A stretch of DNA of 15,359 bases, taken from Candidatus Dadabacteria bacterium. GTDB lineage: Bacteria; Desulfobacterota_D; UBA1144; Nemesobacterales; JADFKM01. A program made the position numbers and the translations under genes. The DNA is taken from positions 1 through 15,359 of the forward strand of contig JADFKM010000047.1 of NCBI GenBank assembly GCA_022564935.1, in the 5' to 3' direction. Shown piece after piece: positions 903 to 15,359 of this stretch. The notes beneath the pieces are model-generated. The model searched no databases and was not told where the DNA came from. It saw nothing but the letters and a program-made list of their open reading frames with translations. Numbering within the stretch: the first letter of the stretch is position 1; each line of letters opens with the position of its first letter.

Positions 903-937
903 ATTAATATTTCACATGATTCGGTTGCTGCGTCAAG

Positions 938-965
938 TTGATTTTCATCACATCGTGATTATATT
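938..965 (+). promoter_or_regulatory. smpB promoter directly abutting the start codon
   Basis: TTGATT (938-943) and TATATT (960-965) are separated by 16 bases. The -10 box ends only six bases before the smpB ATG at 972, so transcription would start at or next to the A of the start codon. The intervening TTAGCC contains no Shine-Dalgarno. This suggests a leaderless mRNA, inferred from sequence only. Confidence 0.55.
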
Positions 966-971
966 TAGCCT

Positions 972-1424
972 ATGGTAAGAGTTGTATGTAAGAATCCCAG
1001 GGCTTCCAGGGACTTTGCTCTCGAGGATAGGTACGAGGCCGGAATAGAGCTCTGGGGCTCCGAGGTAAAGTCCCTTCGCGACTCGCAGGCGAGCATTAAG
1101 GAGAGCTTTGCCATGGTGAGGGAGGGCGAGGTTTATCTTGTGAACAGCTACATTGCGCCGTATGAGGGCTCAAACCAGTTTAACCATGAGCCCAGGAGGT
1201 CTAGGAAGCTTCTTCTCAATAAACGGGAGATAAATAAGCTGATTGGAAAGACCCTGATAAGGGGTTATACTATTGTTCCCCTCAGGATCTATTTTAAGAA
1301 CGGCTGGGCGAAAGTGGAGATCGCCATCGGGAAGGGAAAACGCACCTTCGATAAGCGCGAAGACATAAAGCGAAGAGAAGCAGACAGGGAAATGAGCAAG
1401 GCGATGAAAAGAAGGATGAAGTAG
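972..1424 (+). CDS. smpB: SsrA-binding protein SmpB
   Basis: SmpB binds the tRNA-like domain of tmRNA, delivers it to ribosomes stalled without a stop codon, and its C-terminal tail occupies the empty mRNA channel. The 150-residue length is usual for the family. Hallmarks are the N-terminal KNPRASRDFALEDRYEAGI block (7-25), the central GSEVKSLRDSQASIKESFA segment (about 29-47), the PRRSRKLLLNKREI region (about 73-86), and a basic, helix-forming tail ending EMSKAMKRRMK. The start is fixed by alignment to the family; a promoter -10 box lies six bases upstream and no ribosome-binding site is present. Its RNA partner ssrA begins 92 bases downstream, a common arrangement that supports both calls. 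Confidence 0.96.
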   Translation: MVRVVCKNPRASRDFALEDRYEAGIELWGSEVKSLRDSQASIKESFAMVREGEVYLVNSYIAPYEGSNQFNHEPRRSRKLLLNKREINKLIGKTLIRGYTIVPLRIYFKNGWAKVEIAIGKGKRTFDKREDIKRREADREMSKAMKRRMK

Positions 1425-1457
1425 CGGGGGGCAGCAGCGTGGGGGGGGGCAGTATTT

Positions 1458-1486
1458 TTGAAATTAAAATAAAGCGTTTTGTTAAT
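1458..1486 (+). promoter_or_regulatory. ssrA promoter
   Basis: TTGAAA (1458-1463), a 17-base spacer and GTTAAT (1481-1486) form a reasonable sigma70-type promoter. Transcription would start near 1493, leaving a 5' leader of about 23 bases before the mature tmRNA end at 1516. This fits the usual removal of the leader by RNase P. Confidence 0.5.
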
Positions 1487-1515
1487 TTAAGTTTTTTTCA
1501 GTTCTTTGAAAATTT

Positions 1516-1869
<354 letters not shown>

Positions 1870-1921
1870 AATTTTCAAACTAAATTTGCATTGTTACACT
1901 TTCAGTATTTATTGAAGTCCG

Positions 1922-1954
1922 CTCCCGCGTGTTCGCGCGGGAGTTTTATTTTTT
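1922..1954 (+). terminator. Rho-independent terminator after ssrA
   Basis: CTCCCGCG (1922-1929) pairs perfectly with CGCGGGAG (1936-1943) around a six-base loop and is followed by TTTTATTTTTT. This is a textbook intrinsic terminator 52 bases beyond the tmRNA 3' end. Confidence 0.9.
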
Positions 1955-2148
1955 CGTGACGTATCAAATAAAATCCTTTTCCTATGCGTCTCTGACTCTG
2001 CGAGAAGCCGGATAGTAAAGAAATAGGACGTGCCTTCCTCTTGGATAGGGCTTCTGTTCTGAGTGAAGGCTCGAGACCCGATGCGCTGTGCCATCTTGCG
2101 GTAGAGTTTTCTTTCAGTTCCATTGCCTAATCTAAAATAATTCTTAAA
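1955..2148. other. Intergenic stretch without a supported gene
   Basis: Between the ssrA terminator and the rph promoter I find no start, ribosome-binding site and family resemblance that belong together. Two overlapping minus-strand open frames cover it, but both run through the terminator hairpin and one also enters the start of rph. They resemble no family I know. Confidence 0.5.
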
Positions 2149-2154
2149 TATAAT
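2149..2154 (+). promoter_or_regulatory. Candidate -10 box for rph
   Basis: A perfect TATAAT lies about 60 bases before the rph ATG. No good -35 is seen at the usual distance (TTGCCT at 2123-2128 is too far). Transcription would start near 2161, leaving a leader of about 54 bases that carries the rph Shine-Dalgarno. Confidence 0.45.
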
Positions 2155-2214
2155 TTGGATTTGTTGCCGGGCACAGGTGCTTTTCCTCCCCGGTATTCTT
2201 GGAGGACCCATACC

Positions 2215-2934
2215 ATGAGCAGACACGACGGCAGAGAGCCCGACGAGCTAAGACCCGTCCACATAACCCGCGGAGTGATGCGAAACGCCGAGGGCTCCGC
2301 GCTGATAAGGGTGGGTAATACCGAGGTGAACTGCACGGCTACGATCGAAGAATCCGTTCCCGCTTTTATGATGGACACGGGCAAGGGCTGGCTCACCGCC
2401 GAGTACGCCATGCTCCCACGGGCCACACAGGAGCGCACGAGAAGGGATTCGGTAGCAGGACGTGTGAGCGGGCGCTCCCAGGAGATACAGAGGATAATCA
2501 GCCGGGTGCTGCGTGCGAGCCTGAATATGGATAAACTCGGCGAGAGGATGATCATTGTAGACTGCGACGTTCTGCAGGCAGACGGCGGCACAAGAACAGC
2601 GTCCATCACAGGGGGTTTCGTGGCCGTTTACGATGCTGTGCAATATATGCTTAGGGAAGGTATGATAAACGAAGACCCGATTTCCGAGTTCGTTGCCGCA
2701 GTGAGTGTGGGAATACATGACGGCGTGGCCCTTCTAGACCTTGACTATAAGGAGGACTCTAAAGCCGGAGTCGATTTGAACATCGCCATGAACTCCGCCG
2801 GTGAATATATCGAGATTCAGGGCACCGCCGAAAACGAGCCGTTCAGCAAAGACAGGCTCTGCAATTTGCTTAAACTTGCTGAAGATGGGATACTTAAGCT
2901 CATAGCCAAGCAAAAAGAGATTCTGTGGGAGTAG
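2215..2934 (+). CDS. rph: Ribonuclease PH
   Basis: RNase PH removes nucleotides 3' of the CCA end of tRNA precursors by phosphorolysis, releasing nucleoside diphosphates; it works as a ring of six subunits. The start is the ATG at 2215 because GGAGG at 2201-2205 sits nine bases upstream. This gives 239 residues, matching the usual length, whereas the in-frame ATG at 2155 would add 20 unrelated residues and overlaps the -10 box. Seen in the protein: the N-terminal RPVHITRGVMRNAEGSAL (13-30), GRSQEIQRIISRVLR (86-100), the phosphate-binding GGTRTASITGG (124-134) and the acidic LDLDYKEDSKAGVDLNIAM segment (174-192). All key blocks are present. It precedes rdgB by 54 bases, a frequent pairing in bacteria. 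Confidence 0.96.
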   Translation: MSRHDGREPDELRPVHITRGVMRNAEGSALIRVGNTEVNCTATIEESVPAFMMDTGKGWLTAEYAMLPRATQERTRRDSVAGRVSGRSQEIQRIISRVLRASLNMDKLGERMIIVDCDVLQADGGTRTASITGGFVAVYDAVQYMLREGMINEDPISEFVAAVSVGIHDGVALLDLDYKEDSKAGVDLNIAMNSAGEYIEIQGTAENEPFSKDRLCNLLKLAEDGILKLIAKQKEILWE

Positions 2935-2970
2935 TCCCCGACCCGGTTTCCTTAATGGGACAAATCTTCA

Positions 2971-2976
2971 TATAAA
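2971..2976 (+). promoter_or_regulatory. Possible internal -10 box for rdgB
   Basis: TATAAA lies 12 bases before the rdgB ATG, in a gap with no Shine-Dalgarno. The -35 side (TTCCTT at 2948-2953) is poor. It may allow short-leader transcription of rdgB besides read-through from rph. Confidence 0.3.
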
Positions 2977-2988
2977 TTATCAGTTGGC

Positions 2989-3588
2989 ATGCTCAAAGAG
3001 ATAATCATTGCATCTGCAAACAGCGCTAAAGTGAGGGAGTTTTCCGCCCTGCTGTCCCCCGTTGTGGGAAGGATAGTCCCAATGGGCGAGATGGACCCCG
3101 TTCCGGAGCTGGAGGAAAAAGGGGCCAGTTTCAGAGAAAACGCCCTTGGCAAAGCCCGGACGGTGCTTGGTGCCTCAGGCCTCCCCACCCTGGCCGACGA
3201 TTCGGGTCTCGAGGTACAAGCCCTTCATGGGCGACCCGGGGTGTACTCCGCCAGGTATGCGGGCAGTGAAGCGACCGATGATGATAATATAAGAAAATTG
3301 CTCGATGAGCTCGAAGGCGTTGAAAACAGGGCGGCCAGGTTCGTCTGCTGCCTTGCCCTTGTGTATCCCGACGGCAGGGAAATTGTGGTCGAAGGCGTAT
3401 GTGAAGGCGTTATCGCCGAAGAGCCGAAGGGAGAGGGAGGGTTTGGCTACGACCCTGTTTTCATGATCCCCGAGCTGGGTAAGACCATGGCGCAGATCTC
3501 GCCGGGCGATAAGAACTCCATTAGCCATAGGGGAAGGGCCTCAAGAGCCATGATAATGTATCTTAACGGGCATAAGACCAGAGCGTAG
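2989..3588 (+). CDS. rdgB: RdgB/HAM1 family XTP/dITP pyrophosphatase
   Basis: This enzyme hydrolyses dITP, XTP and ITP to monophosphates and pyrophosphate, keeping deaminated purines out of DNA and RNA. At 199 residues it has the family's usual size. Hallmarks are the nucleotide-binding SANSAKVREF near the N-terminus (9-18), LADDSGLEVQALHGRPGVYSARYAG (68-92, with the catalytic D70/D71 pair), GGFGYDPVF (150-158) and SHRGRA (179-184). The ATG at 2989 is the first in frame after a stop and places the first motif correctly. It follows rph by 54 bases and probably shares its transcript. Only the weak ribosome-binding site is odd. Confidence 0.95.
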   Translation: MLKEIIIASANSAKVREFSALLSPVVGRIVPMGEMDPVPELEEKGASFRENALGKARTVLGASGLPTLADDSGLEVQALHGRPGVYSARYAGSEATDDDNIRKLLDELEGVENRAARFVCCLALVYPDGREIVVEGVCEGVIAEEPKGEGGFGYDPVFMIPELGKTMAQISPGDKNSISHRGRASRAMIMYLNGHKTRA

Positions 3589-3765
3589 GTAAATGCTGTA
3601 AATATAGCGTGTTTATTTTTGGGTAATTGTGGATTCCGCTTGAGTTTGCATTATCTAGTTTGTGTGATACCCTAGCTTGGGGATAAGGGGTATTATTTGT
3701 GGTTGCTCACTGTCAGTCCAGTAAAATTTAACTTCAAAAAGCCCATTTCATGGTAGCCGTTACGG

Positions 3766-5388
3766 ATGTCTAAAACCAAATTCATTTTTGTGACAGGCGG
3801 CGTGATGTCCTCCTTAGGCAAGGGGCTTGCGTCGGCATCCATCGGAGCGCTCCTCGAAGGACGAGGGCTAAGCGTGTCCCTGCAGAAGCTTGACCCCTAC
3901 ATAAACATTGACCCCGGCACAATGAACCCGTTCCAGCACGGCGAGGTTTACGTCACCGACGACGGCGCGGAAACAGACCTCGACCTCGGTCACTATCAGA
4001 GGTTTACAAACTCCAAGCTCACGAAGAAAAATAATTTAACCACAGGACAGATTTACAATTCGGTAATCACAAAGGAGCGCCAGGGTGAGTATCTGGGCAA
4101 GACCGTGCAGGTCATCCCCCATATCACCGATGAGATCAAATCGGGAATCCTCGCCATAGCAAACGGCAACGGGGGAGTGGATGTGGCGATTATTGAGATC
4201 GGGGGTACGGTCGGGGACATAGAGAGCCTTCCGTTCCTCGAAGCCGTCAGGCAGCTGCGGTTTGATCTCGGTAAGGAGAACACCCTGTTTATTCACCTAA
4301 CCTATGTGCCCTACGTCGCCCCTGCGGGAGAGCTTAAGACAAAACCCACTCAGCACAGCGTAAAGGACCTGCTTTCCATCGGTATCCAGCCCGATGTGCT
4401 GCTTTGCAGGGCCGACAGGTACCTGCCTGAGGACATAAAAGGCAAGATTTCACACTTCTGCAACATAAGATCTGAAGCGGTAATATCGGCAAAGGATGTG
4501 GAGATCATATATGAAGTGCCCATTGTGTTCCACCGTGAGATGCTCGATGATATCATAGTCGAAAATCTCAATATGTGGACGAAGAAGCTCGACATTTCAC
4601 ATTGGGAGCGGTTGGTGGATAGGTGGAAGAACCTCTCAGAAGATGTTTCCATAGGCGTTGTGGGGAAGTATGTGAGCCAGAAGGACGCGTACAAGAGCCT
4701 TCATGAAGCCCTGTGGCACGGCGGCATTCACAACGACTTTAAGGTTAATATCGTCTATGTTGACTCGGAGGAAATAGAATCGGGCGGCGGGGATGTGGTG
4801 TTGTCCAGAGTAGACGGCATTCTTGTGCCCGGGGGGTTTGGGAAGCGTGGCTTTGAGGGTAAGATCAGCGCTGCTAAATACGCACGGGAGCACAATGTCC
4901 CGTTTTTCGGCATATGTCTTGGGATGCAGATGGCCGTGGTGGAGTTTGCAAAGAACGTCTGCGAAATCCCGGACGCTCACTCAAGCGAGTTCAATGAGAA
5001 TATGCCTAACGCGGTTGTTCACCTGATGGAAGATCAAAAAACCGTTTCAGACAAAGGGGGCACTATGAGACTGGGCGCCTATCCCTGCTCTGTTAAGCCC
5101 GGGACTTTGACCTATAAAGCTTACGGCTGCTCTGAGATTTCCGAGAGACACAGGCACCGGTTCGAGATAAACAACACCTACCGCGATAGGTTCCAGCAAG
5201 GCGGACTTAGGCTTAGCGGCCTTTCCCCCGACGGAGGCCTTATAGAAATGGTTGAGATTAAAGACCACCCATGGTTCGTGGGTTGCCAGTTCCATCCGGA
5301 GTTTAAATCCACTCCGCTCAACCCTCATCCCTTGTTCAGGGATTTCATTAAAGCCGCCATTGGGTATAAGTCGTCCAGGGCGGATTAA
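3766..5388 (+). CDS. pyrG: CTP synthase (glutamine-hydrolysing)
   Basis: CTP synthase aminates UTP to CTP with ATP and glutamine, the last step of pyrimidine nucleotide synthesis. The 540-residue protein has the standard two-domain layout. The N-terminal synthetase has the P-loop-like [10 protein letters not shown] (11-20), [15 protein letters not shown] (41-55) and [11 protein letters not shown] (144-154). The C-terminal class I amidotransferase has PGGFGKRG (355-362), the nucleophile C384 in GICLGMQ and the H510/E512 pair in HPEF. All catalytic residues are present. The start fits the family ([13 protein letters not shown]), although no good Shine-Dalgarno precedes it. The 177-base gap from rdgB holds a TAAAAT box at 3722-3727 that may be a weak -10, and an imperfect inverted repeat (ATACCC near 3666, GGGTAT near 3688) of unknown role. 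A terminator follows. Confidence 0.97.
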
Positions 5389-5412
5389 CCCCATTACTCG
5401 ATAAGTTTCCAC

Positions 5413-5450
5413 CTCCGCAGTGTCTAGGAGCGCTACGGAGACTTTTTTTT
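5413..5450 (+). terminator. Intrinsic terminator after pyrG
   Basis: CTCCG (5413-5417) pairs with CGGAG (5436-5440). After one mismatch, AGTG pairs with CGCT, leaving an eight-base loop. Eight T residues follow at 5443-5450. It separates pyrG from the exonuclease gene. Confidence 0.7.
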
Positions 5451-5460
5451 CAATTTATTC

Positions 5461-5469
5461 TGGTATTAT
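5461..5469 (+). promoter_or_regulatory. Extended -10 promoter of the RNB exonuclease
   Basis: TGGTATTAT matches the extended -10 pattern TGnTATAAT with one difference in the core. It lies right after the pyrG terminator, 16 bases before the ATG at 5486. The leader would be about nine bases and holds no Shine-Dalgarno. Confidence 0.5.
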
Positions 5470-5485
5470 AGAAATTTGTACTGCC

Positions 5486-7525
5486 ATGAATAAGATTCCC
5501 GCAAAGACCGAAGTCGTTGTGTATAGGAAGAGGAGCCAGCCTTGTCTGGGGGTTATGTTAGAGACCGGGCCTGAAAAAGCTTCTATATTCTCCGAGGAAG
5601 GAAAGGAGCTCTCCATTGACCTTACCCGTATTGTGCGCGGAGCCGGGATAAAGTATGGGGAAGATATGGATGAGTCTGAAATCGAGCTTGCCCTGAGGGG
5701 GCTGAGACGCGAGCTCGAAGAGGGGACGAGCTCTATTGACCTCGTGACCCTTTGGGAATGCGTTTTGGATTCCGAGCGCGAGCTGTCCTTCAATGACATA
5801 AAGGAGCTTTATTTTGAGTCCGGTCCCACTGACGCCGTGGAGGAGCTGATTTTATTCTGGGCGGTTGACAAGAGCGACCTTTATTTCAAGCGCCAGCGCA
5901 GTGGGGGGTACCTGCCGAGAAGCAGAGATGAAGCAGCCGGGATTCGGAGGCGCAAAGAAGCGGAAAGAAAGAAGCTCCTTGAGGCCGAAGCCGCCATTAA
6001 ATGGGTTCGCGCCGTAATGGAAGACACTCCTGCTGAAGACACCGAATACGATTTCGAGGGGTACGTGGAGCTTATTAAGGATTTTGTGATACACCTTGAT
6101 AACTTCGATAAAGCCCCGCAAGCAAGGTCGTTCATAGCCCGCGCGGGCCTGAAGAACACCGATGAGGCGATACAGTTCCTGATCAAAACGGGGAACTGGA
6201 CTGAGAACGACGACCCCGTATTCTTAAGGCTCGGGATCACAAAGACGTTTCCAAAAATCGTCGAGGAAGAGACCGACTCGGTACTGTCGTCCCCGGTATC
6301 TTACGACGGTCTTGCGGACTTAACCGGGGTGTCCACGTACTCGATTGACGACGTAAACACCGAAGACATAGACGACGCCGTCTCCATTTCTCTTACGGCG
6401 CAGGGGCCTGTGCTTGGTGTGCACATTGCCGATGTGGATGTTTTCGTCGGAAAAGGGACTCAACTAGACGAGGAGGCGCTCAAAAGGGGCGAAACCATTT
6501 ATTTGCCCGAAGGTCATGTCCACATGTTCCCTCCCCGTCTTATTCGCGACAGACTCAGCCTGATTGAGGGGGAGGCCAAGAAGGCGCTGTCATTGCTCGT
6601 GTATTTCGACAAGCATCTTAACATCAATAACTACACATTTGCAGGCTCCAAGATCGCGGTGGACAAGAACCTCCTGTACTCCGAAGCCGAAGATAAGCTG
6701 CGCCGGAGCGAGGAGGGCTCCCTGCTCTTTGAGATAGCCCACAGGCTCAGGCGGGACAGGATATGCTCCGGGGGCTGTGTGCTGGACCTCCCCGACCTTA
6801 AGATAAAGGTGAGCGACGATGGGGAGATTTCGCTCAGAACGGTGACGATGACCACACCGGCTCACATCCTCATAGCGGAGTGTATGATACTTATGAACGT
6901 CCTTGCAGGGGCTTTCTTACGCTCGGCTCATCTTCCCGCGATTTACCGGTACCTCACCGAAGAGGTACCTGAAGAGGTTCGCACCATAGATATGGACGAT
7001 CCCCTCTACCCTATAAGAGCTTTGAAGTTCCTTCGTCCCTCTAGGTTCTCTCTCACCCCCCTGCCGCACCGCTTCGTGGGAGTGGACACGTACGTTCAGG
7101 TCACCTCCCCTATAAGGCGCTATCTCGACCTTGTAATGCAGCGGCAGATACTCCGCAAGGTTAAGGGGCTTTCTCCGGCATACGGGCCCGAGGAGCTTGA
7201 GCGGATATACCAGCGGGTCGAATTGGGCATCCGGGATAAAAGAACCGTCGAGAGAGCCAGGACGAAGTTCTGGCTCTTTAAGTATTTGGAGAAGATGAAG
7301 GGGGAGGTAATCAAGGGGTATGTGAGCCAGACCGGAGGGGCGCAAACAACCGTGTATTTCCCCCAATACCTGCTCGAAGCGCCCGTTTCGCTATCAGCGC
7401 ACGAAGTAAGGGAAGTCGGAACGCCGCTGGAGTGTGTGATAGAAAACGTTGAGCCGATTAGGAGAAAGATTTCCCTCACCCCGTTACAGGAGCCTTCGAG
7501 CCGAATACCGGGCGCCTCGACGTAG
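5486..7525 (+). CDS. RNB-domain 3'-5' exoribonuclease (RNase II/R family)
   Basis: This is a processive hydrolytic exoribonuclease degrading RNA from the 3' end. The catalytic block STYSIDDVNTEDIDDAVSI (283-301) has aspartates at 288, 294, 296 and 297, the same spacing as D201, D207, D209 and D210 of E. coli RNase II. GVHIADVDVFV (311-321), FPPRLIRDRLSL (348-359) and VTSPIRRYLDLVMQRQ (539-554) complete the RNB domain. The last 75 residues (from about 605) read as an S1-like RNA-binding domain. The first 260 residues are unlike the paired cold-shock domains of classical RNase R and recall the short cyanobacterial/plastid-type proteins. The ATG at 5486 gives 679 residues; a GTG at 5420 is in frame but would run through the pyrG terminator and the promoter. 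I give no symbol because rnb and rnr cannot be separated here. Confidence 0.9.
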   Translation: MNKIPAKTEVVVYRKRSQPCLGVMLETGPEKASIFSEEGKELSIDLTRIVRGAGIKYGEDMDESEIELALRGLRRELEEGTSSIDLVTLWECVLDSERELSFNDIKELYFESGPTDAVEELILFWAVDKSDLYFKRQRSGGYLPRSRDEAAGIRRRKEAERKKLLEAEAAIKWVRAVMEDTPAEDTEYDFEGYVELIKDFVIHLDNFDKAPQARSFIARAGLKNTDEAIQFLIKTGNWTENDDPVFLRLGITKTFPKIVEEETDSVLSSPVSYDGLADLTGVSTYSIDDVNTEDIDDAVSISLTAQGPVLGVHIADVDVFVGKGTQLDEEALKRGETIYLPEGHVHMFPPRLIRDRLSLIEGEAKKALSLLVYFDKHLNINNYTFAGSKIAVDKNLLYSEAEDKLRRSEEGSLLFEIAHRLRRDRICSGGCVLDLPDLKIKVSDDGEISLRTVTMTTPAHILIAECMILMNVLAGAFLRSAHLPAIYRYLTEEVPEEVRTIDMDDPLYPIRALKFLRPSRFSLTPLPHRFVGVDTYVQVTSPIRRYLDLVMQRQILRKVKGLSPAYGPEELERIYQRVELGIRDKRTVERARTKFWLFKYLEKMKGEVIKGYVSQTGGAQTTVYFPQYLLEAPVSLSAHEVREVGTPLECVIENVEPIRRKISLTPLQEPSSRIPGAST

Positions 7526-7600
7526 CGTGCGCCGCAGTTCATTGAGATGAGTTCGCTTCCTTACTGAGCTTTTAGGGAGCTTGAGGATGGTTGGGCGGCG

Positions 7601-7624
7601 CTAAATTTTCATGTTGAGATTTAG
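7601..7624 (+). other. Stem-loop in the gap before the protease gene
   Basis: CTAAATTT and AGATTTAG can pair over eight positions (one G-T) around an eight-base loop. No T-run follows, so it is not a standard terminator. The rest of the 197-base gap shows only the promoter at 7690-7698. The role is unknown and chance is possible. Confidence 0.3.
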
Positions 7625-7689
7625 TGTTGGGTTCGCACGACCAGGGTTCGGAGTGTGTTTGAGTTGGCGGAGCCCGGAATAAATACACA

Positions 7690-7698
7690 TGTTATAAT
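7690..7698 (+). promoter_or_regulatory. Consensus extended -10 promoter of the site-2 protease
   Basis: TGTTATAAT is a perfect extended -10 element. It lies 24 bases upstream of the ATG at 7723, giving a leader of about 17 bases. No -35 consensus is present at 16-18 bases, as is usual for extended -10 promoters. Confidence 0.65.
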
Positions 7699-7722
7699 GT
7701 TTCTCCTGCATCGGCTTCGGAA

Positions 7723-8634
7723 ATGAAAAGCAAGTTAATTCACATCGCCCTTTTTCTCACCACTGCGCTTACCACCTTTTATGCGGGCTACCTCCTTTTC
7801 GGTGAAGTTTTGGACGGGTTGTTGTTTTCCTCCTCGCTGCTCCTCATTCTTGGGACACACGAGCTCGGGCACTACCACTTCGGGAAAAAGAACGGAGTAG
7901 ACATCACACCTCCGTACTTCATACCCGTCCCGGCGTTGCCGGACTTCCCCACAATAGGCACCTTCGGCGCATTTATCAGAATACGCTCCCCCATCTACAC
8001 CAAAAGGGCCCTTTTCGATATAGGAATAGCGGGCCCTCTTATGGGCATACTGATGGCCGTGCCCGTTATCGCAATAGGTCTGCGTCTCAGCTCTGTAGTG
8101 GCAAATCCGCCTGATGCCGAGGGGGGGCTGCTGTTCGGAGCACCAATTTTCTATACGCTGCTGGAGACGGTTTTCTTAAGCGACGTTCCCAAAGGCTCCG
8201 AGGTGATATGGCACCCGATGGCCTTTGCGGGCTGGATAGGGTTTCTGGTAACGGCGCTCAATCTAATACCGGCGGGGCAGCTTGACGGCGGGCATATAAT
8301 GTACGCGCTGTTTACGAAGCAGTGGCACCGGAGGATATCTGCGGCGATAGTTGTTGTGTTGATCGTCCTCGGGGTCGGCACCAAGCCCTTTGTGGAGCTG
8401 GCGGGGCTTGTGTGGCCGGAGAGCCCGCTGGCTCAATATGCCGGGCCGCTTTTGTTCGGGGGGTGGCCTGGGTGGGTGCTCTGGGCCTTTTTGCTCTCTG
8501 TGTTCGGCAGGAAACATCCCCCCACGATTTATGATACCATACCGCTGGACAGAAAAAGAAAGATGCTCGGCATAGTAGGGCTCGTTGTCTTCCTGGGCTG
8601 CTTTACGCCCGTGCCCGTAAGCCTGATACCCTAG
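7723..8634 (+). CDS. Site-2 protease family (M50) membrane metalloprotease
   Basis: This is an intramembrane zinc metalloprotease. The zinc-binding HELGH is at residues 46-50 inside the second hydrophobic segment, and the third metal ligand D188 lies in NLIPAGQLDGGH (180-191). GTFGAFIRIRSP (79-90) matches the conserved GxFGAF stretch of the group containing plant EGY proteins and their bacterial relatives. Hydrophobic segments occur at about 6-26, 30-46, 100-122, 168-186, 205-218, 240-262 and 281-300, so the 303-residue protein is polytopic and has no PDZ domain. It lacks the cystathionine-beta-synthase domains of sporulation-type S2Ps. Substrates may be membrane-bound regulators or signal-peptide remnants, but nothing here identifies one. 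It stands alone with its own promoter. Confidence 0.9.
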   Translation: MKSKLIHIALFLTTALTTFYAGYLLFGEVLDGLLFSSSLLLILGTHELGHYHFGKKNGVDITPPYFIPVPALPDFPTIGTFGAFIRIRSPIYTKRALFDIGIAGPLMGILMAVPVIAIGLRLSSVVANPPDAEGGLLFGAPIFYTLLETVFLSDVPKGSEVIWHPMAFAGWIGFLVTALNLIPAGQLDGGHIMYALFTKQWHRRISAAIVVVLIVLGVGTKPFVELAGLVWPESPLAQYAGPLLFGGWPGWVLWAFLLSVFGRKHPPTIYDTIPLDRKRKMLGIVGLVVFLGCFTPVPVSLIP

Positions 8635-8890
8635 CGCTGCATTAGGAATTGCAGGTGAAACCTATTGGCGTCAGGGACTTGTGATGCTGTAGTATTAATG
8701 GGCGTTTCCTGAAATTAAAACAAAGCTCGATCGTTGCATCGTAGACCGCCCCTTTTGGTGAGAGATTCATGTTCTTAAGGGTGGTTTAAAAGCTCAAATG
8801 TAATTAAGGCTCCGGTCTTGGCTTTAGGCGCATGTGTGTGTTATGAGCCCTGTGTGGGGTGGAGCACGGCGCATTACAGCATCCATCCAG
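8635..8890. other. Intergenic stretch between the protease and gltA
   Basis: The whole gap runs from 8635 to 9047. Its left part holds a small inverted repeat right after the protease stop (CTGCA at 8637-8641, TGCAG at 8650-8654) without a T-run, and no coding frame with a ribosome-binding site. I see no RNA gene. The right part carries the gltA promoter and leader, listed separately. Confidence 0.4.
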
Positions 8891-8919
8891 TTGAAAACCG
8901 TCGGATTTGTAGGTATAAA
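8891..8919 (+). promoter_or_regulatory. Sigma70-type promoter of gltA
   Basis: TTGAAA (8891-8896), a 17-base spacer and TATAAA (8914-8919) make the best classical promoter in the window. Transcription would start near 8926, leaving a leader of about 120 bases before the gltA GTG. Confidence 0.75.
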
Positions 8920-9014
8920 TTATACGCTGAGATAAAGTGGCTTTTCCCATGTTTCTCGTTTACATTCTCAGCCTCGTATTGTAAGCAATAGTCACACAGC
9001 ATAATGTATTACAC

Positions 9015-9033
9015 AATGTGTGCACATCACATT
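9015..9033 (+). promoter_or_regulatory. Inverted repeat in the gltA leader just before the Shine-Dalgarno
   Basis: AATGTG (9015-9020) and CACATT (9028-9033) form an inverted repeat with a seven-base centre that itself contains the start of GTGCAC. It ends one base before the GAGGAGA ribosome-binding site (9034-9040). It could be an operator or a hairpin limiting ribosome access; both are inference. Confidence 0.4.
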
Positions 9034-9047
9034 GAGGAGAGTGTACA

Positions 9048-10334
9048 GTGGCCAAGGATACCTTGACAATCACTGATAACAGAACAGGAAGAGCGTATGA
9101 GATCCCCGTCGAAAATGACACCATCAGGGCGACTGACCTACGGCAGATCAAAGTGAATGAAGGTGATTTCGGCATGATGAGCTACGACCCTTCATTCAGT
9201 AATACGGCCGCGTGCAAGAGCAGCATAACTTTCATCGACGGCGAGAAGGGAGTTCTCAAGCACCGGGGATACCCGATAGAGCAGCTCGCTGAGCGTAGCA
9301 CCTTTCTCGAGGTTGCTTATTTGCTGCTCTACGGTGAGCTGCCGAAAAAAAGAGAGTATGAGAAGTGGGTGCACGAAATTACTCATCACACCATAATCCA
9401 TGAAAAAATTAAAAAGTTCATGGACGGCTTCCGTTACGACGCCCATCCAATGGGTATGCTTATCAGTACGGTGGCAGCGCTTTCGACCTTCTATCCCGAG
9501 GCCAAGGACATATTTGACGAGAAGTCGAGAGAGATGCAGATTTATCGCCTCATAGCGAAGATGCCCACACTTGCGGCTTTCTCCTACAGGCACACGTTGG
9601 GCCTTCCCTACGTTTATCCCGACAACGACCTGAGCTACGTCGGGAATTTCTTAAAAATGTTGTTCAGGATGACGGAGGCTAAATACGAACCCAACCCGGT
9701 CATCGAGAAGGCTATTGATGTGCTTTTTATACTGCATGCCGACCACGAGCAGAACTGTAGCGCAAACGCTATGAGAAGCGTTGGCAGTTCGCAGCCCGAC
9801 CCCTATTCCGCCACGGCGGCAGCCATTGCCGCGCTCTACGGGCCTCTTCATGGAGGCGCCAACGAAGCGGTGATCCACATGCTCAACGAGATAGGGTCGA
9901 AGGAGAACGTGCCCGCCTTTATCAAGAGGATCAAAGAAGGAGAGTTCAGACTTATGGGCTTCGGACACAGGGTGTATAAGGCCTACGACCCCAGGGCCAA
10001 GATTATCAAGCAAATCGCCCACGATGTGTTCGAGACGACGGGCAAGAACCCGCTCCTGGACATAGCGCTTGAGCTTGAGAAGATTGCGCTTGACGACGAT
10101 TATTTCGTTAAGCGCAAGTTGTATCCCAATGTGGATTTTTATTCCGGGCTTATATACCAGAGCATGGGGATTCCCATGAGCATGTTCACGACTCTCTTTG
10201 CGATTCCCCGTACGGCGGGGTGGCTTGCGCAGTGGCTCGAGATGCTTGATGACCAGGAGCTCAAAATAGCTAGGCCTCGGCAGATCTACATCGGGCCCAA
10301 GATGAGGGAATACATACCTCTGCAAGAGAGATAA
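9048..10334 (+). CDS. gltA: Citrate synthase
   Basis: Citrate synthase condenses oxaloacetate and acetyl-CoA, the entry step of the TCA cycle. The start is GTG at 9048, with GAGGAGA at 9034-9040 seven bases upstream. The 428-residue protein has the length and N-terminal beta-rich domain (about 1-55) of the large hexameric Gram-negative type, the class usually inhibited by NADH. Catalytic residues are in place: H268 in GPLHGGANEAV, H307 in FGHRVYKAYDPRA and D363 in PNVDFYSG. The segment HADHEQNCSANAMRSVGSS (230-248) is also diagnostic. A methylcitrate synthase is less likely given the N-terminal domain. The gene has its own promoter and a long leader and is not in an operon with other TCA genes. 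Confidence 0.96.
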   Translation: MAKDTLTITDNRTGRAYEIPVENDTIRATDLRQIKVNEGDFGMMSYDPSFSNTAACKSSITFIDGEKGVLKHRGYPIEQLAERSTFLEVAYLLLYGELPKKREYEKWVHEITHHTIIHEKIKKFMDGFRYDAHPMGMLISTVAALSTFYPEAKDIFDEKSREMQIYRLIAKMPTLAAFSYRHTLGLPYVYPDNDLSYVGNFLKMLFRMTEAKYEPNPVIEKAIDVLFILHADHEQNCSANAMRSVGSSQPDPYSATAAAIAALYGPLHGGANEAVIHMLNEIGSKENVPAFIKRIKEGEFRLMGFGHRVYKAYDPRAKIIKQIAHDVFETTGKNPLLDIALELEKIALDDDYFVKRKLYPNVDFYSGLIYQSMGIPMSMFTTLFAIPRTAGWLAQWLEMLDDQELKIARPRQIYIGPKMREYIPLQER

Positions 10335-10416
10335 ACCTCCGGCTCTATAGGGAACTCAATTGAAGATTGGCACCTAAGTTACCAACACTTTCCTCCTATC
10401 AATTCATTAGCGTAGA

Positions 10417-10452
10417 TCGAGTTGTGTCGCAGAATCCAGACTCGGGTTTTTT
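10417..10452 (+). terminator. Possible intrinsic terminator after gltA
   Basis: TCGAGT (10417-10422) can pair with ACTCGG (10440-10445), one pair being T-G. The loop is a long 17 bases, and GTTTTTT ends the element. The T-run is good but the stem is weak. It lies about 80 bases past the gltA stop. Confidence 0.45.
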
Positions 10453-10501
10453 ATGGTGAGTGGGTTGGCGCAGGCATTGTAGACTAAAGGGCAGCCTATT
10501 T

Positions 10502-10858
10502 TTAAGATGTAGAGAAGTGCATTGCAATAACTGCGTTGTAGTAGAAATCGATCGCTTTCTCTAAGCCCGTCAAAAAAATCCCCACTGCAAGCGCCGTTCC
10601 CTCATCGGTGCCTAGAAACTCTTCCAGGCCGTCTCCCAGATCGTTTTTTTGCAAATAATCGAGCATTGCGTCTCTAAAGTAGGACTCAATTGGTCTCGTC
10701 TCGTCTTCCAGCGCCTTCTCGATGAAGGCTTCGTCCTGCAGGTCGTAGTTCTTCTTCTGAGCCTCGGACAGGAGTACTTCCTTTGCTTTTCCCGGCGGAA
10801 GCGCAGGGAACTCATTCAAGATCTCTTTAAATGCACGGAGCAAAATTTCCCGGTTCAT
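10502..10858 (-). CDS. Small acidic helical protein of unknown function
   Basis: I do not recognise this 118-residue protein. It begins MNREILLRAFKEILNEFPAL, is rich in Glu, Asp, Leu and Ala with few prolines, and should be mostly alpha-helical. Residues 85-110 (GTALAVGIFLTGLEKAIDFYYNAVI) are the most hydrophobic, either an amphipathic helix or a poor membrane segment. There is no signal peptide. It lies 61 bases downstream of gloA on the same strand but has its own promoter-like sequence ending 11 bases before the ATG. The only purine-rich element, AGGG, is two bases from the ATG, too close to act as a Shine-Dalgarno. AGA/AGG and ATA codons match the neighbours, so it looks native. Being real rests on length, composition and the promoter. 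Confidence 0.6.
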   Translation of the reverse strand: MNREILLRAFKEILNEFPALPPGKAKEVLLSEAQKKNYDLQDEAFIEKALEDETRPIESYFRDAMLDYLQKNDLGDGLEEFLGTDEGTALAVGIFLTGLEKAIDFYYNAVIAMHFSTS

Positions 10859-10869
10859 GACCCTAATAT

Positions 10870-10898
10870 AATATACACTGACCGGAAGAGTTGTTTAA
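10870..10898 (-). promoter_or_regulatory. Promoter of the 118-residue gene
   Basis: Read on the minus strand, TTAAAC (10893-10898), a 17-base spacer and TATATT (10870-10875) form a promoter. The -10 box ends 11 bases before the ATG at 10858, so the leader would be only a few bases long. Confidence 0.45.
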
Positions 10899-10919
10899 GC
10901 GCCGTGACCGCAGCGAGTA

Positions 10920-11300
10920 CTACTTGCGCTCTATGAACTCTATCTTGTACCCGTCGGGGTCTTCGACGAATGCTATCACCGTCTTGCCGTGCTTCATCGG
11001 GCCGGGCGGTCTTGTTATCTTCCCACCGGCCTGCGCTATCTTGTCGCATGTGGCGTAGATGTCGGCTACCCCGAACGCCATGTGCCCGTAAGCGTCGCCG
11101 TTGTTGTAGTCGCTTGTGTTCCAGTTGTAGGTCAGCTCGAGAAATGGCTCGGTGTCTCCGCCGAGGCCCAGAAATGCCAGGGTGAACCTCCCGCCTTCGT
11201 AATCAGTCTGCCTGTGGAGTTTTAGGCCCATCACATTCGTGTAGAACTCCTTGGACTTCTCGAGGTCTCTCACTCTAATCATCGTATGAAGGAATTTCAT
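10920..11300 (-). CDS. gloA: Lactoylglutathione lyase (glyoxalase I)
   Basis: Glyoxalase I converts the hemithioacetal of methylglyoxal and glutathione to S-lactoylglutathione, detoxifying a glycolytic by-product in the cytoplasm. The 126-residue protein has two beta-alpha-beta-beta-beta modules. The four metal ligands fall where expected from E. coli GloA (H5, E56, H74, E122): H5, E55 in EPFLELTYNW, H73 in GHMAFGV and E121 in GYKIEF. TMIRVRDLEKSKEFYTNVMGLKL (6-28) and EDPDGYKIEFIER (113-125) are diagnostic. AAAGGAG lies eight bases before the ATG. It has its own minus-strand promoter and may be co-transcribed with the small gene downstream. Confidence 0.95.
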   Translation of the reverse strand: MKFLHTMIRVRDLEKSKEFYTNVMGLKLHRQTDYEGGRFTLAFLGLGGDTEPFLELTYNWNTSDYNNGDAYGHMAFGVADIYATCDKIAQAGGKITRPPGPMKHGKTVIAFVEDPDGYKIEFIERK

Positions 11301-11332
11301 CTCCGGCGCTCCTTTCGAGGTATCTTAATGCG

Positions 11333-11361
11333 AAACTATCACGGTCAGAATAGTATGTCAA
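11333..11361 (-). promoter_or_regulatory. Promoter of gloA
   Basis: On the minus strand a perfect -35 TTGACA (11356-11361) is followed after 17 bases by TAGTTT (11333-11338), a weak -10. Transcription would start near 11326, about 26 bases before the ATG at 11300, a leader that includes the AAAGGAG ribosome-binding site. Confidence 0.5.
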
Positions 11362-11998
11362 ATAAACGGCGTTTCTTTTTCTAATTACTTGCGGGGTATT
11401 CGATAATGTCGAGGCTGCATCGAGTGGGTGGTCAAACTTTCGGGCAAAAGGTAAAGTCGTTGCTATCTACAAGTTTTCATGAAATTAGTGATTTTCATCG
11501 CAGCCCTTTGCAAAATAGATTTTATGTGTTAACAATTAGGATTGCTTATTATTAGTTAACTTAAATAATTTGCAATAGCGGTTTTGATTTATTTTCAAAA
11601 TTAGTGGGAAACATTGCTGATGTTATTTTGGGAGGTGCTCAGGGGGGTAACTTCAGACTTTTTACAGGCGTGATTTCCACCTGTTTTGTGTAGACTGAGC
11701 AATAGGGGCGGTGAGTCTGCTGATAAGCGGGTCATAAACGGGCTGAAATACCGTTTCAGTTGGCTGTGTGCAGTTGCCTGTTTGAATTTTTTTTATGGTT
11801 CATACAGCCACTGAGCCGCATTGATTACCCAACCAGTAAATCCATCACAAATTTAGAGCTGCCGGGCGATGAAAATGGAGCTTGCGCTTTTGGTTCCGAT
11901 TCTCGCTCATGGATAAGCCGCCGACCTTTTCCGGTCAGAGGACGTCTGAATGAACGGGAGATGTGGAGCTAATAGCAAAGTACCAAGGGAGATATTGA
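11362..11998. other. Long AT-rich intergenic region between gloA and the thioesterase
   Basis: No gene is supported here. The left half is AT-rich, with two GTTAAC palindromes about 25 bases apart near 11530-11560. The middle has small hairpin-like elements: ACAGG/CCTGT near 11663-11683, and two overlapping alternatives near 11736-11759 (AAACGG with CCGTTT, or CTGAAA with TTTCAG). Next comes the larger inverted repeat at 11756-11815. A 70-codon open frame at 11760-11972 starts inside that repeat, has no ribosome-binding site and resembles nothing. The region ends with AAGGGAG (11985-11991), the Shine-Dalgarno of the thioesterase. A divergent regulatory region or a decayed gene would both fit. 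Confidence 0.45.
11756..11815. repeat. Imperfect long inverted repeat with a T-rich loop
   Basis: TCAGTTGGCTGTGTG (11756-11770) pairs with CATACAGCCACTGA (11801-11814) over 14 positions with one G-T pair and one bulged T. The 30-base loop contains eight consecutive T residues. It could be a structured RNA, a protein site or the remnant of a small mobile element; nothing decides between them. Confidence 0.5.
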
Positions 11999-12475
11999 AT
12001 GGCTTCTATCTATTTTCAGGATCACATGAAGCACAACAGCTGTTGGGGGTGTGGGAGCTCTAACGAACACGGTCTGAAGATAAAGAGCTACTGGGATGGT
12101 GACGAAACCGTGTGCATATGGCAGCCCAAGCCATACCACCACGCGGTGCCCGAAACCGTTCTGATTGGCGGGTTGATTTGCACGATAATGGACTGCCACT
12201 CCATATGCACGGCCATTGCGCATGCTTACAGGGAAGAAGGGAGGGATTTAAAAAACGAGCCGATAATCTGGTACGTCACCGGGGGAATAAACGTGTCGTT
12301 TCTTAAACCGACCCCGATGGGAGGCCCTGTCAAGCTGCGCGCGACCATTAAGGAAGTAAAGGGCAAAAAGACTATTGTGTCGTGCAATCTAACCTCCTTT
12401 AATGAACTTTGCGCGACCTCCGAGGTTACAGCTGTGCGCGTTGAAACCGATGAGTGGTTCAAGGTGCACGGCTAG
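11999..12475 (+). CDS. PaaI-like hotdog-fold thioesterase
   Basis: The 158-residue protein matches the PaaI/4HBT hotdog thioesterases, which hydrolyse acyl-CoA or aryl-CoA esters. The N-terminal CWGCGSSNEHGLKIK (15-29) is the Cys-rich leader common to one PaaI-like subgroup. GGLICTIMDCHSICTAI (57-73) corresponds to the conserved HGG...D helix, with D65 as candidate catalytic acid; the His usually before GG is replaced by Ile (LIGGL). NVSFLKPTPMGGPVKLRATI corresponds to the later core strands. AAGGGAG lies seven bases before the ATG. The substrate is unknown and no catabolic genes are nearby. Confidence 0.8.
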   Translation: MASIYFQDHMKHNSCWGCGSSNEHGLKIKSYWDGDETVCIWQPKPYHHAVPETVLIGGLICTIMDCHSICTAIAHAYREEGRDLKNEPIIWYVTGGINVSFLKPTPMGGPVKLRATIKEVKGKKTIVSCNLTSFNELCATSEVTAVRVETDEWFKVHG

Positions 12476-12612
12476 CTCCCGCGGAGGCATGTGGCATTGT
12501 TTGGCAAAACAAGGCGTTGCTTGCCTGACGTTTAGCATTTAGATGGAATACATTGCTCGTCTCGGGGGCTTCGAACGCTTCAGCCTAGCTACTCCCCCCA
12601 TTTAAAACCCGG

Positions 12613-12618
12613 TATAAT
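12613..12618 (+). promoter_or_regulatory. -10 box of the small unknown gene
   Basis: A perfect TATAAT overlaps the in-frame ATG at 12617 by two bases. That makes this ATG an unlikely translation start and favours the GTG at 12656. No clear -35 is seen. Confidence 0.5.
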
Positions 12619-12655
12619 GTTCTTTCTCACTATCTCGTTTGTCGGGGAACTATTA

Positions 12656-12973
12656 GTGGATAAGGAAAGGCTTACCGAGAGGCTGCACTGCATTGCGAGA
12701 GAAAGGGCTATCTCTGCCGGGTTTTTGTTCGGTGAAGACACGGCCAGGTCATTGCATGAAGTGATAGACGAGGCGGTTGCTCGAATCGAGAAGGAAGGGA
12801 AGCTTGAGGATGCGGTCGCCAATATGGAAGCAAAGAGCAACCTGATGAGGCTCATCGACGCTATGGCGCAGGAGGCCAGGAAGACGCCGGAGGACTCCGA
12901 CACTAACGAGCTTCACCCCCACAACTACAATGCCGCCATGGAGAAGCTCCGCCCCCTCTGGCCTTTTTGTTGA
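12656..12973 (+). CDS. Small Glu/Ala-rich helical protein of unknown function
   Basis: I do not recognise this protein. The GTG at 12656 is preferred over the ATG at 12617 because GGGGA (12644-12648) is seven bases upstream and the ATG lies inside a TATAAT box. The product has 105 residues. The first 75 or so (from VDKERLTERLHCIARERAI to DAMAQEARK) are charged and helix-forming, possibly coiled coil. The tail (SDTNELHPHNYNAAMEKLRPLWPFC) is less regular and ends in an aromatic, Cys-terminal stretch. There is no signal peptide or membrane segment. Seven of its nine arginines use AGG or AGA, like the genes to its left and unlike everything to its right. It is the last gene of host character in the window. 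Confidence 0.55.
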   Translation: MDKERLTERLHCIARERAISAGFLFGEDTARSLHEVIDEAVARIEKEGKLEDAVANMEAKSNLMRLIDAMAQEARKTPEDSDTNELHPHNYNAAMEKLRPLWPFC

Positions 12974-13059
12974 AGTGTGGATAAAAGAGTTTATCAGCAT
13001 TCGTTGACCCAATAGGTTTCTATGAGTAAGCGCAATAGGGAAAAACAACCCGCACCTAT

Positions 13060-13299
13060 ATGAACCCATCCCAAGGCTCAAGCTCTGAAGGCGGCATCGT
13101 TGTGGAGGGGGCCTACGGTGTGTCGGATGCGCTGATGGTTTCGGCTTCTGTCCCGGTGTTGCTTTACAGTTTGAAGAATGATTTTACACGAGAGGAAGGT
13201 CTCAGCCTCGGAGACATTCGTAGTTCGGTGCGATATCGTCTGTTCAAGCGCACGCTTGTCTCGTCGGTTGAAGTCGGATTGAAAGTCCCCACGGCAACC
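13060..13299 (+). pseudogene. Fragment of an outer-membrane beta-barrel protein (MetA/transporter-like)
   Basis: VVEGAYGVSDALMVSASVPVL and SLGDIRSSVRYRLFK, followed by VSSVEVGLKVPT, show the alternating pattern and GD...RYRLF signature of the phenol-degradation MetA-like barrel group. In that group a signal peptide and an N-terminal strand precede this part and more strands follow the GLKVPTG-like strand. Here no signal peptide is encoded upstream (stops in all three frames shortly before the ATG) and the right side becomes transposase. All five arginines use CGN codons. It is therefore a piece of a gene, lost at both ends. Family placement is from motif memory. Confidence 0.5.
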
Positions 13300-14268
13300 G
13301 AAGCCGAAATGCAAGCCCGCCGCGGCCCACGAAAGGGCTCGAACAAATGCGGCTGTGGTTTGAAGAAATGCCAACGTCATCGGGGCCGCAAGAAGCGAAA
13401 AAAGAAAGGCAAAAAGAAACCCAAGAAGCGTGGGCACAACGGCAAAAACGGCAAAAGTGCCACGTTGATCGCGATGGTTACGTTACGGCGTGGGGAAGAC
13501 GGAAAACTGCACGGGCCGATCCAGAAAAAGTTTTGGGGGCGGTTCGGCAGCCGCCACGACGCGATCCGCTGGGCCCGCAGCCAAGCGGAACGCCGCGGCT
13601 TTGGCCCTGGTACGAACAAGGTGGTTCAAATTGTGATCGACGGCGAAAAGTGTTTGCGGAAACGGTTCGAGGAGCAGTTTCCGAAAACGGATTATCCGCA
13701 AGTGGTAATCACCCTGGATGTGCGGCACGCGCAGGAGCGGCTGTGGAAGATCGGGCGGCTGTTTCACGAAGAAGGCAGCGACGAGTTGGCCGGCTGGGTC
13801 GAGCCGTTGCAGGTGTTGCTGTTGGGGGGGCGAATCAAGACCTTGCTAAATCGGCTGCGGGCGGTGTATCAATCGATCCCCAAACGTGGTCCGAACACGA
13901 AGTCGAAGCGGGAAGAACTGGAGAGGCAGATCGCGTATGATGAAGAGCGCGAACCGATAATGCATTACGACGAGTACCAGCGTGCGGATCTGGTGTTGGC
14001 GACGGGTGTGATTGAAGGGGCGTGCCGTTATGTGATTGGAGAGCGTCTGGATTGTTCCGGGATGCGTTGGGACCTGCCGGGCGCCGAGCCGCTACTTCAA
14101 CTGCGCTGCGTGGAATTGAATGGAGATTGGGAATCCTTCATCGATTGGGCTCACAGCGCCTACCAAGCGGAACAGTTGGAACAAAAGCTGATCCAAGTCG
14201 GACCCAAGCAACCGAAATCGAAGAAAAGAGCAAAGAACTCCGCGACCACTGAAAGCACCCCCGCATGA
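13060..14268 (+). CDS. Chimeric open frame: beta-barrel fragment fused to an N-truncated ISKra4-family transposase
   Basis: One 402-residue frame joins two unrelated parts. Residues 1-80 read as part of an outer-membrane barrel. From about residue 82 the frame is transposase: a basic Cys/His segment (CGCGLKKCQRHRGRKKRKK, 97-115, possibly DNA or zinc binding), D194 in VIDGEKCL, D220 in LDVRHAQERLW, E319 in GVIEGACRY, and the family's C-terminal GERLDCSGMRW and LNGDWESF. In ISKra4-type enzymes the first catalytic Asp lies before the basic segment; here that part is replaced by barrel sequence, so the protein is probably inactive. The true N-terminus is uncertain; no Shine-Dalgarno precedes the ATG. 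Its TGA overlaps the ATG of the next frame (ATGA). Whether the fusion exists in a cell is doubtful. Confidence 0.7.
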   Translation: MNPSQGSSSEGGIVVEGAYGVSDALMVSASVPVLLYSLKNDFTREEGLSLGDIRSSVRYRLFKRTLVSSVEVGLKVPTATEAEMQARRGPRKGSNKCGCGLKKCQRHRGRKKRKKKGKKKPKKRGHNGKNGKSATLIAMVTLRRGEDGKLHGPIQKKFWGRFGSRHDAIRWARSQAERRGFGPGTNKVVQIVIDGEKCLRKRFEEQFPKTDYPQVVITLDVRHAQERLWKIGRLFHEEGSDELAGWVEPLQVLLLGGRIKTLLNRLRAVYQSIPKRGPNTKSKREELERQIAYDEEREPIMHYDEYQRADLVLATGVIEGACRYVIGERLDCSGMRWDLPGAEPLLQLRCVELNGDWESFIDWAHSAYQAEQLEQKLIQVGPKQPKSKKRAKNSATTESTPA

Positions 14269-14292
14269 CCACGACGCAAGCGAAATGCACCC
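13285..14292 (+). mobile_element. ISKra4-family insertion sequence, left end missing
   Basis: The element contains the truncated transposase and no left terminal repeat. The right end is proposed at about 14292, where ...AAATGCACCC ends; read inward this gives GGGTGCATTT, the GGG-type start expected of ISKra4 termini. Immediately after it the aspartic protease similarity begins, which fits an insertion into that gene. The right end is inference, since the left end is not available for comparison. The left limit is set by the protein junction. Confidence 0.5.
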
Positions 14293-14477
14293 ATTGCGGA
14301 ATCTATGAAGCCGTGCGGTTGACCGTACAGGGGCGCGAGATGACCGCCGACGTCGCCGAAGTGCCCGACGAGTGCCCCGTCCTGATCGGTCAAATTCCGC
14401 TGGAAGGACTCGACTTTGTCGTCGATCCGGTCGGCCAGCGGCTAATCGGCAATCCCGACCATCACAATGACGAATGA
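14265..14477 (+). CDS. C-terminal fragment of a retropepsin-like aspartic protease
   Basis: Residues from about 13 onward (YEAVRLTVQGREMTADVAEV, then VLIGQIPLEGLDFVVDP and RLIGNP) read as the C-terminal half of the small clan AA aspartic proteases common in planctomycetes. The N-terminal half with the catalytic Asp-Thr/Ser-Gly is absent. The first dozen residues (MTTTQAKCTHC) probably come from the IS right end. The ATG overlaps the transposase TGA as ATGA, an arrangement that looks coupled but is probably an accident of the insertion. The stop codon lies inside the second unit of an AATGACG repeat, so the true C-terminus may also have been altered. I regard it as a non-functional remnant. 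Confidence 0.5.
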   Translation: MTTTQAKCTHCGIYEAVRLTVQGREMTADVAEVPDECPVLIGQIPLEGLDFVVDPVGQRLIGNPDHHNDE

Positions 14478-14623
14478 CGAATGACGAATGACGAAAGAAA
14501 TCCGAATGACTAAATGACGAAGGCCCCAGAGGTTACGTCAACAGGCAATGCCACGGCGCAAACTCTGTTCGGATTTCGGACTTCGTCATTCCTTCGTCAT
14601 TCGAGCTTCGTCATTCGTCATTG
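14465..14623. repeat. AATGACG repeat cluster forming a large inverted repeat
   Basis: The left arm has four exact tandem AATGACG units (14466-14493) and two further copies or variants. The right arm has four CGTCATT units (14584-14590, 14595-14601, 14609-14615, 14616-14622). GAAATCCGAA on the left also mirrors TTCGGATTTC (14568-14577) on the right. The centre (about 14522-14567) is unique. Such AATGACGA repeats are, from memory, abundant between planctomycete genes. The arrangement would make a long imperfect hairpin; its function is unknown. Confidence 0.8.
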
Positions 14624-14733
14624 CCGCCCGCGGACCGTGGGGGCGAAGACGGGGTAACGGCGGTAACGCGAACCCTCCGAACGGGTAGCCCCTTCGCACT
14701 GCATGCAACATTTCTCTGTAGAAAGGAATAACC

Positions 14734-15359
14734 ATGTCCTCAGGAGTGGACAGGCGGGCCCCGCGACGGGTCGGTCGGCGTGAGATGCTGCGCGGTGCGG
14801 CGGCGGCCGGTGCGGCGGTGAGCGTGGCTTCTCGAACGGACGTAAGCCGGGCGGCGGATCGCGCCCCACGGTTCATCGACGTACACAACCACCCGTACTG
14901 GCTCGGCCACAACGCCGAGAAGATGGTGGCCAACATGGACCGGTACGGAATCGCCAAAACGTGGCTGCTGAGCTGGGAGTGCCCGGACCACGAACGCAGC
15001 CCGTCGTATCACCGGTCGTTGAACCCCGAAGGACGCGGCATTCTCTTCTCCGACGTCGTGCGAATCGTCGAGCGGTATCCGGATCGGTTCATTCCCGCCT
15101 GGGCACCCGACCCCCGGCATCCGTCGACGCGCGATCGACTCACCGCCGCCGTCAAGATCCACGGCGTGCGGGTGTACGGCGAGATGAAGCTGCGCATGAC
15201 GTACGACAGCCCGGACGCGCTGTCGATCTTTCGGCTCTGCGGCGAGCTGGGCCTGCCGGTGCTCTTTCATCTCGACGTCACGTTGCCGCGCGGACGGCCG
15301 GTGAGGAACTGGCAGTACTGGTATGGCGGGCACATCGACGCGGTCGAGCGGGCGCTCAA
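14734..15359 (+). CDS. Tat-exported amidohydrolase-family protein, C-terminus beyond the window edge
   Basis: The frame is open from the ATG at 14734 to the right edge (208 codons). AAAGGA at 14722-14727 lies six bases upstream. The N-terminus carries a twin-arginine signal: GRREMLRG at 14-21 followed by AAAAGAAVSVA, so export in folded form is expected. The mature part begins with FIDVHNHPYW, whose H51-N-H53 is the HxH metal-binding pair of the amidohydrolase-2 TIM barrel. IHGVRVYGEMKLRM (around 149-162) and LGLPVLFHLDV continue the barrel, the latter His being a likely third ligand. The reaction is unknown; relatives include hydrolases and decarboxylases. Arginine is nearly all CGN, matching the transposase rather than the left part of the window. 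Confidence 0.8.
   Translation, partial: MSSGVDRRAPRRVGRREMLRGAAAAGAAVSVASRTDVSRAADRAPRFIDVHNHPYWLGHNAEKMVANMDRYGIAKTWLLSWECPDHERSPSYHRSLNPEGRGILFSDVVRIVERYPDRFIPAWAPDPRHPSTRDRLTAAVKIHGVRVYGEMKLRMTYDSPDALSIFRLCGELGLPVLFHLDVTLPRGRPVRNWQYWYGGHIDAVERAL

Follow-up and report, generated by a model that had tools for sequence, protein, structure and literature searches.

Public assemblies are known to contain chimeric contigs (PMC10978663). Insertion sequences (ISs) have also been reported that are common to different phyla, with Planctomycetes among the IS reservoirs (PMC9208149), and from PVC bacteria palindromic repeats have been described that fall well short of the length of the one at the present locus (PMC3733652). 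The window analyzed here is the entire contig C58 (15,359 bases) from a genome bin that comprises 104 contigs with a total of 1,993,734 bases and is, as judged by marker genes, 88.6% complete and 0.9% contaminated. As in the chimeric contamination described for metagenome-assembled genomes, the window looks like a two-organism contig whose foreign part continues up to its end, the evidence here being sequence signatures (PMC10978663). Comparison loci were taken from relatives within the order of the bin and from PVC genomes (Planctomycetota, Verrucomicrobia). The bin background was sampled from approximately 535 kb (27% of the bin), and tests of absence across the phylum of the bin covered 56 other genomes. 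The features are collected in Table 1.

Table 1. Features of the 15,359-base window, with positions counted from its first base.
Feature	Position	Strand	Description
Native part	1..12973		GHL13-type hydrolase, smpB, tmRNA, rph, rdgB, pyrG, rnb, M50 peptidase, gltA, glyoxalase, thioesterase, small ORF
Junction interval	12974..13062		Non-coding, strongly bin-like: -0.19 to -0.20 bits/base
Outer-membrane beta-barrel fragment (transporter type)	13060..13305	+	Internal piece without signal peptide/N-terminus and C-terminal part; weak homology
ISKra4-family transposase, 5'-truncated	13306..14268	+	NF033572 positions 197-422 of 422, 138.4 bits against a family cut-off of 205 bits
Clan AA aspartic protease, C-terminal tail	14265..14477	+	TIGR03698 positions 51-106 of 107, 15.9 bits, sub-threshold
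Long imperfect inverted repeat of AATGACG modules	14465..14623		51-nt arms, 78% complementary, 57-nt spacer
Tat-exported amidohydrolase, N-terminal part	14734..15359	+	Pfam Amidohydro_2, 28.6 bits (cut-off 26.4); cut by contig end

The first 12,973 bases are native to the organism of the bin by composition, codon usage, synteny and orthologues. The gene order smpB-rph-rdgB-pyrG-rnb-M50-gltA is kept in several genomes of the same order, within which the CTP synthase encoded by pyrG reaches up to 77% identity. Close to the break, many genomes of the order carry orthologues of the thioesterase gene (11999-12475), with identities of 44-59%. The last ORF before the break (12656-12973, 105 aa) had no detectable homologue in the comparison loci, and its native origin is assigned from composition and codon usage alone. 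Two further features of this part were recorded in passing. The tmRNA gene (1516-1869, tag AEPINQLAA) lies beside smpB and rph and is ordinary, and the minus-strand gene at 10502-10858, adjoining gltA, encodes a conserved 118-aa protein, family unknown, with 30-34% identity in several genomes of the same order.

Near position 12974 the character of the DNA changes abruptly, as the first-pass annotation had proposed from arginine codon usage, and codon log-odds, tetranucleotides and a Markov scan all bear this out. AGG or AGA encodes 7 of 9 arginines in the 12656-12973 ORF, against 0 of 6 in the barrel fragment, 2 of 33 in the transposase and 2 of 28 in the amidohydrolase; the reference shares are 60% for the sampled bin and 6% for the Planctomycetota loci. 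Codon log-odds (planctomycete versus bin) are negative in 12 of the 12 genes left of the break (3-12973), at -0.12 to -0.41 per codon. To its right they are positive throughout (+0.09 to +0.29), in the barrel piece and the protease tail as well as in the amidohydrolase and each of the two transposase halves. Tetranucleotide distances in sliding windows, which the annotation had suggested as a check, are typical of the bin in 2-kb windows up to 13000, while the last two windows (13001-15000 and 13360-15359) are more distant than any of the 122 windows that served as bin background. The order-3 Markov log-odds of 13061-15359 is +0.054 bits/base, which falls within the range of planctomycete windows; the maximum of 210 bin windows of 2.3 kb is -0.025. 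Alternatively, the right part could be native after all and merely unusual in composition, as an old genomic island would be. Sampled bin windows do span 41 to 59% GC, and a weak homologue of the barrel exists elsewhere in the bin, but none of the 210 windows of 2.3 kb is comparable, the repeat is PVC-specific, and the closest amidohydrolases are in Planctomycetota with none in the phylum of the bin, leaving a native origin highly improbable.

The join itself is placed at 12974-13063. The Markov change point falls further right, at 13215-13248, owing to the neutral composition of the barrel piece, yet codon usage has already switched in the ORF that starts at 13060. The interval 12974-13062 is still bin-like, and the break is therefore probably near 13060, with the caveat that the composition of 12974-13060 may mislead as A+T-rich spacers can. 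The break showed neither an integrase nor a tRNA or phage gene. Between 12971-15359 and the sampled 27% of the bin there is no shared k-mer of 16 or more, and hence no positive sign of a repeat-mediated misjoin.

From a point between 12974 and approximately 13063 to the contig end the DNA is foreign, with codon usage, composition, repeats and homologues of Planctomycetota/Verrucomicrobiota type; codon usage, repeat and gene homologues are those of Planctomycetota or PVC chromosomal DNA, and the contig carries two lineage signatures. Placement of the proteins left and right of the break, likewise suggested beforehand, puts their homologues in different lineages. For the amidohydrolase the best matches are 58-59% in two genomes of a single Planctomycetota class, one of which aligns from residue 13 and thus includes the Tat leader, whereas Verrucomicrobiota reach at best 57%, in an alignment that covers less of the protein (residues 44-207). 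The earlier identification of a Tat amidohydrolase was sound: the family match passes its cut-off, and inspection of the sequence shows RREMLRGAAAAGAAVSVAS as a twin-arginine leader, with export predicted. The gene is absent from the 56 other genomes of the phylum and has no second copy in the bin. In the plasmid protein search it matched haloarchaeal amidohydrolases only (34%), and a fused query of thioesterase, transposase and amidohydrolase found no match among named species genomes. The proposal of planctomycete-like DNA attached to a different host accordingly stands as far as a PVC-type origin goes, while Planctomycetota specifically are the favoured though not a certain donor, in view of the 57% match in Verrucomicrobiota.

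The first ORF of the foreign part (13060-14268) is a fusion, in which approximately 82 barrel residues run in frame with an ISKra4 transposase. The barrel fragment matches weakly a 281-aa barrel of bin contig C9 (37% over 68 aligned positions, in the middle only) and, also weakly, a planctomycete ORF (28%); neither it nor the protease tail had a match in the plasmid protein search. We considered whether the fragment could be DNA of the left genome, given the weak homologue in the bin and the neutral nucleotides. Codon usage speaks against this, its log-odds lying beyond 99.6% of 82-codon pieces from the genes of the bin, though 82 codons only are available. On contig C9 a beta-barrel stands in a row with a MerR-like regulator, a small membrane protein and two heavy-metal-associated (HMA-like) proteins (L172 15361-18315), which, judged by eye, may be a metal-resistance cluster.

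The transposase shares with the ISKra4 family (NF033572) the C-terminal catalytic part and its conserved motifs, retaining GVIEGACR and RLDxxGxRWxLxGAE. It differs in being a remnant below the family cut-off, the first approximately 196 model positions being missing, and in having no paired ends in view: a repeat scan found no convincing inverted-repeat pair flanking it, and the 5' part of the element is gone. It is absent from the 56 other genomes of the phylum and has no second copy in the bin. About 10% of the sampled Planctomycetota genomes carry a distant relative. As a donor marker the transposase was dropped, since over long stretches its identity to these relatives is no higher than 41% and the other matches are distant. 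A single-sequence search of viral contigs came back empty, and a profile search of them yielded one distant relative; the transposase DNA had no match among plasmids, and the plasmid protein search returned distant ISKra4 proteins only, at about 30%. Where barrel and transposase meet, there may be a second breakpoint, or else the scar of an old deletion. Downstream, the start of a 70-aa ORF overlaps the stop codon of the transposase ORF. The annotation had read this ORF as an aspartic protease tail, and a match to that family was indeed obtained, albeit at a sub-threshold score. The protease gene is apparently cut at the transposase end, and the right part as a whole looks like an ordinary PVC locus in partial decay.

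The earlier alternatives of a transferred island or a chimeric contig hold as a pair, and they are not equally likely. We consider the contig to be most likely an assembly chimera of two organisms; the lineage difference is shown, while the origin of the join in assembly is inferred. About 13 kb of chromosome of the bin's own organism would have been joined, at 12974 to approximately 13063, to at least 2.3 kb of another chromosome, presumably that of a co-occurring planctomycete-like (PVC) bacterium in which a truncated ISKra4 transposase would have cut an aspartic-protease gene in a decayed locus. The join would then have been made during metagenome assembly rather than in a cell. Composition and codon usage switch sharply, the foreign part reaches the end of a complete contig, the repeat, transposase and amidohydrolase are single-copy in the bin, and the gene fragment found at the join has lost both its ends. 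A real and recent transfer, by which a PVC segment with an IS remnant entered the organism of the bin and has not yet adapted its codon usage, is unlikely. Such an event would suit the transposase within the segment, the coherent and gene-dense nature of the segment, and the sharing of ISs between phyla with Planctomycetes as a named reservoir (PMC9208149); if very recent, it would give identical composition and identical absence from relatives. However, the transposase is truncated with no second end visible, neither an integrase nor an attachment site or a target duplication came to light, the segment is single copy and absent from all relatives, and it runs to the contig end, so that a second boundary is out of view. 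Assembly is preferred over transfer because the foreign part extends as far as the contig does, has no second copy in the bin, begins within a gene and lacks an insertion signature.

With the DNA of two organisms most likely joined in assembly, we advise against attributing the tail to this genome. Should the join be artificial, any claim that assigns the repeats, the amidohydrolase, the protease tail or the barrel/transposase ORF to the organism of the bin would be wrong, as would one that takes the transposase for a mobile element beside the core genes of that organism.

The hairpin repeat of Planctomycetota and Verrucomicrobia is perhaps a more interesting lead than the join. We tentatively regard the hairpin, at somewhat less than an even chance, as a copy of an undescribed family of long-palindrome repeats lying between genes of Planctomycetota and Verrucomicrobia, in which two arms of approximately 50 nt, built of modules of AATGACG/AAATCCG type, enclose a spacer of 19-146 nt unrelated to them. 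Such a family may be mobile, and as a PVC marker it could help to detect misassembly; a short PVC-specific repeat is able to flag a misjoined contig. The GTAG- and CGTC-tagged REPs are likewise interspersed extragenic palindromes, and the GTAG ones have been reported from PVC bacteria too, but they measure 20-40 bp, as opposed to about 100-210 nt overall for the present type with its long arms and variable spacer (PMC3733652). Neither exact 14-mer strings of the repeat nor any description of the element were found in the literature searched, and the window copy matched no Rfam family at gathering score. The planctomycete flavour ascribed to the AATGACG repeats was upheld in the wider sense of a PVC flavour. 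With one mismatch allowed, AATGACGAATGACGAA occurs in the 2-Mb bin at 14466-14622 only, and a 24-mer of the repeat, searched against 84,980 named species genomes, matched 16 contigs, whose titles name 10 Planctomycetota lineages (Pirellulales, Planctomycetales, Planctomycetota, Planctomyces), 5 Verrucomicrobia and 1 'uncultured bacterium'. Among named matches the repeat is thus PVC-specific. These 16 PVC loci, a biased sample in that they were picked by pattern from one arm, hold 18 two-armed elements with the arms always in the order AATGACGA...TCGTCATT; the spacers are 19-146 nt and the modules are mostly spaced by 7, 11, 14 and 18 nt. With the window copy included, 0 of 19 copies lie inside a long ORF, and the arms of one element are no more alike than the arms of different elements. 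Folded as DNA, the hairpin of the window is far better than its shuffles (z = -7.5).
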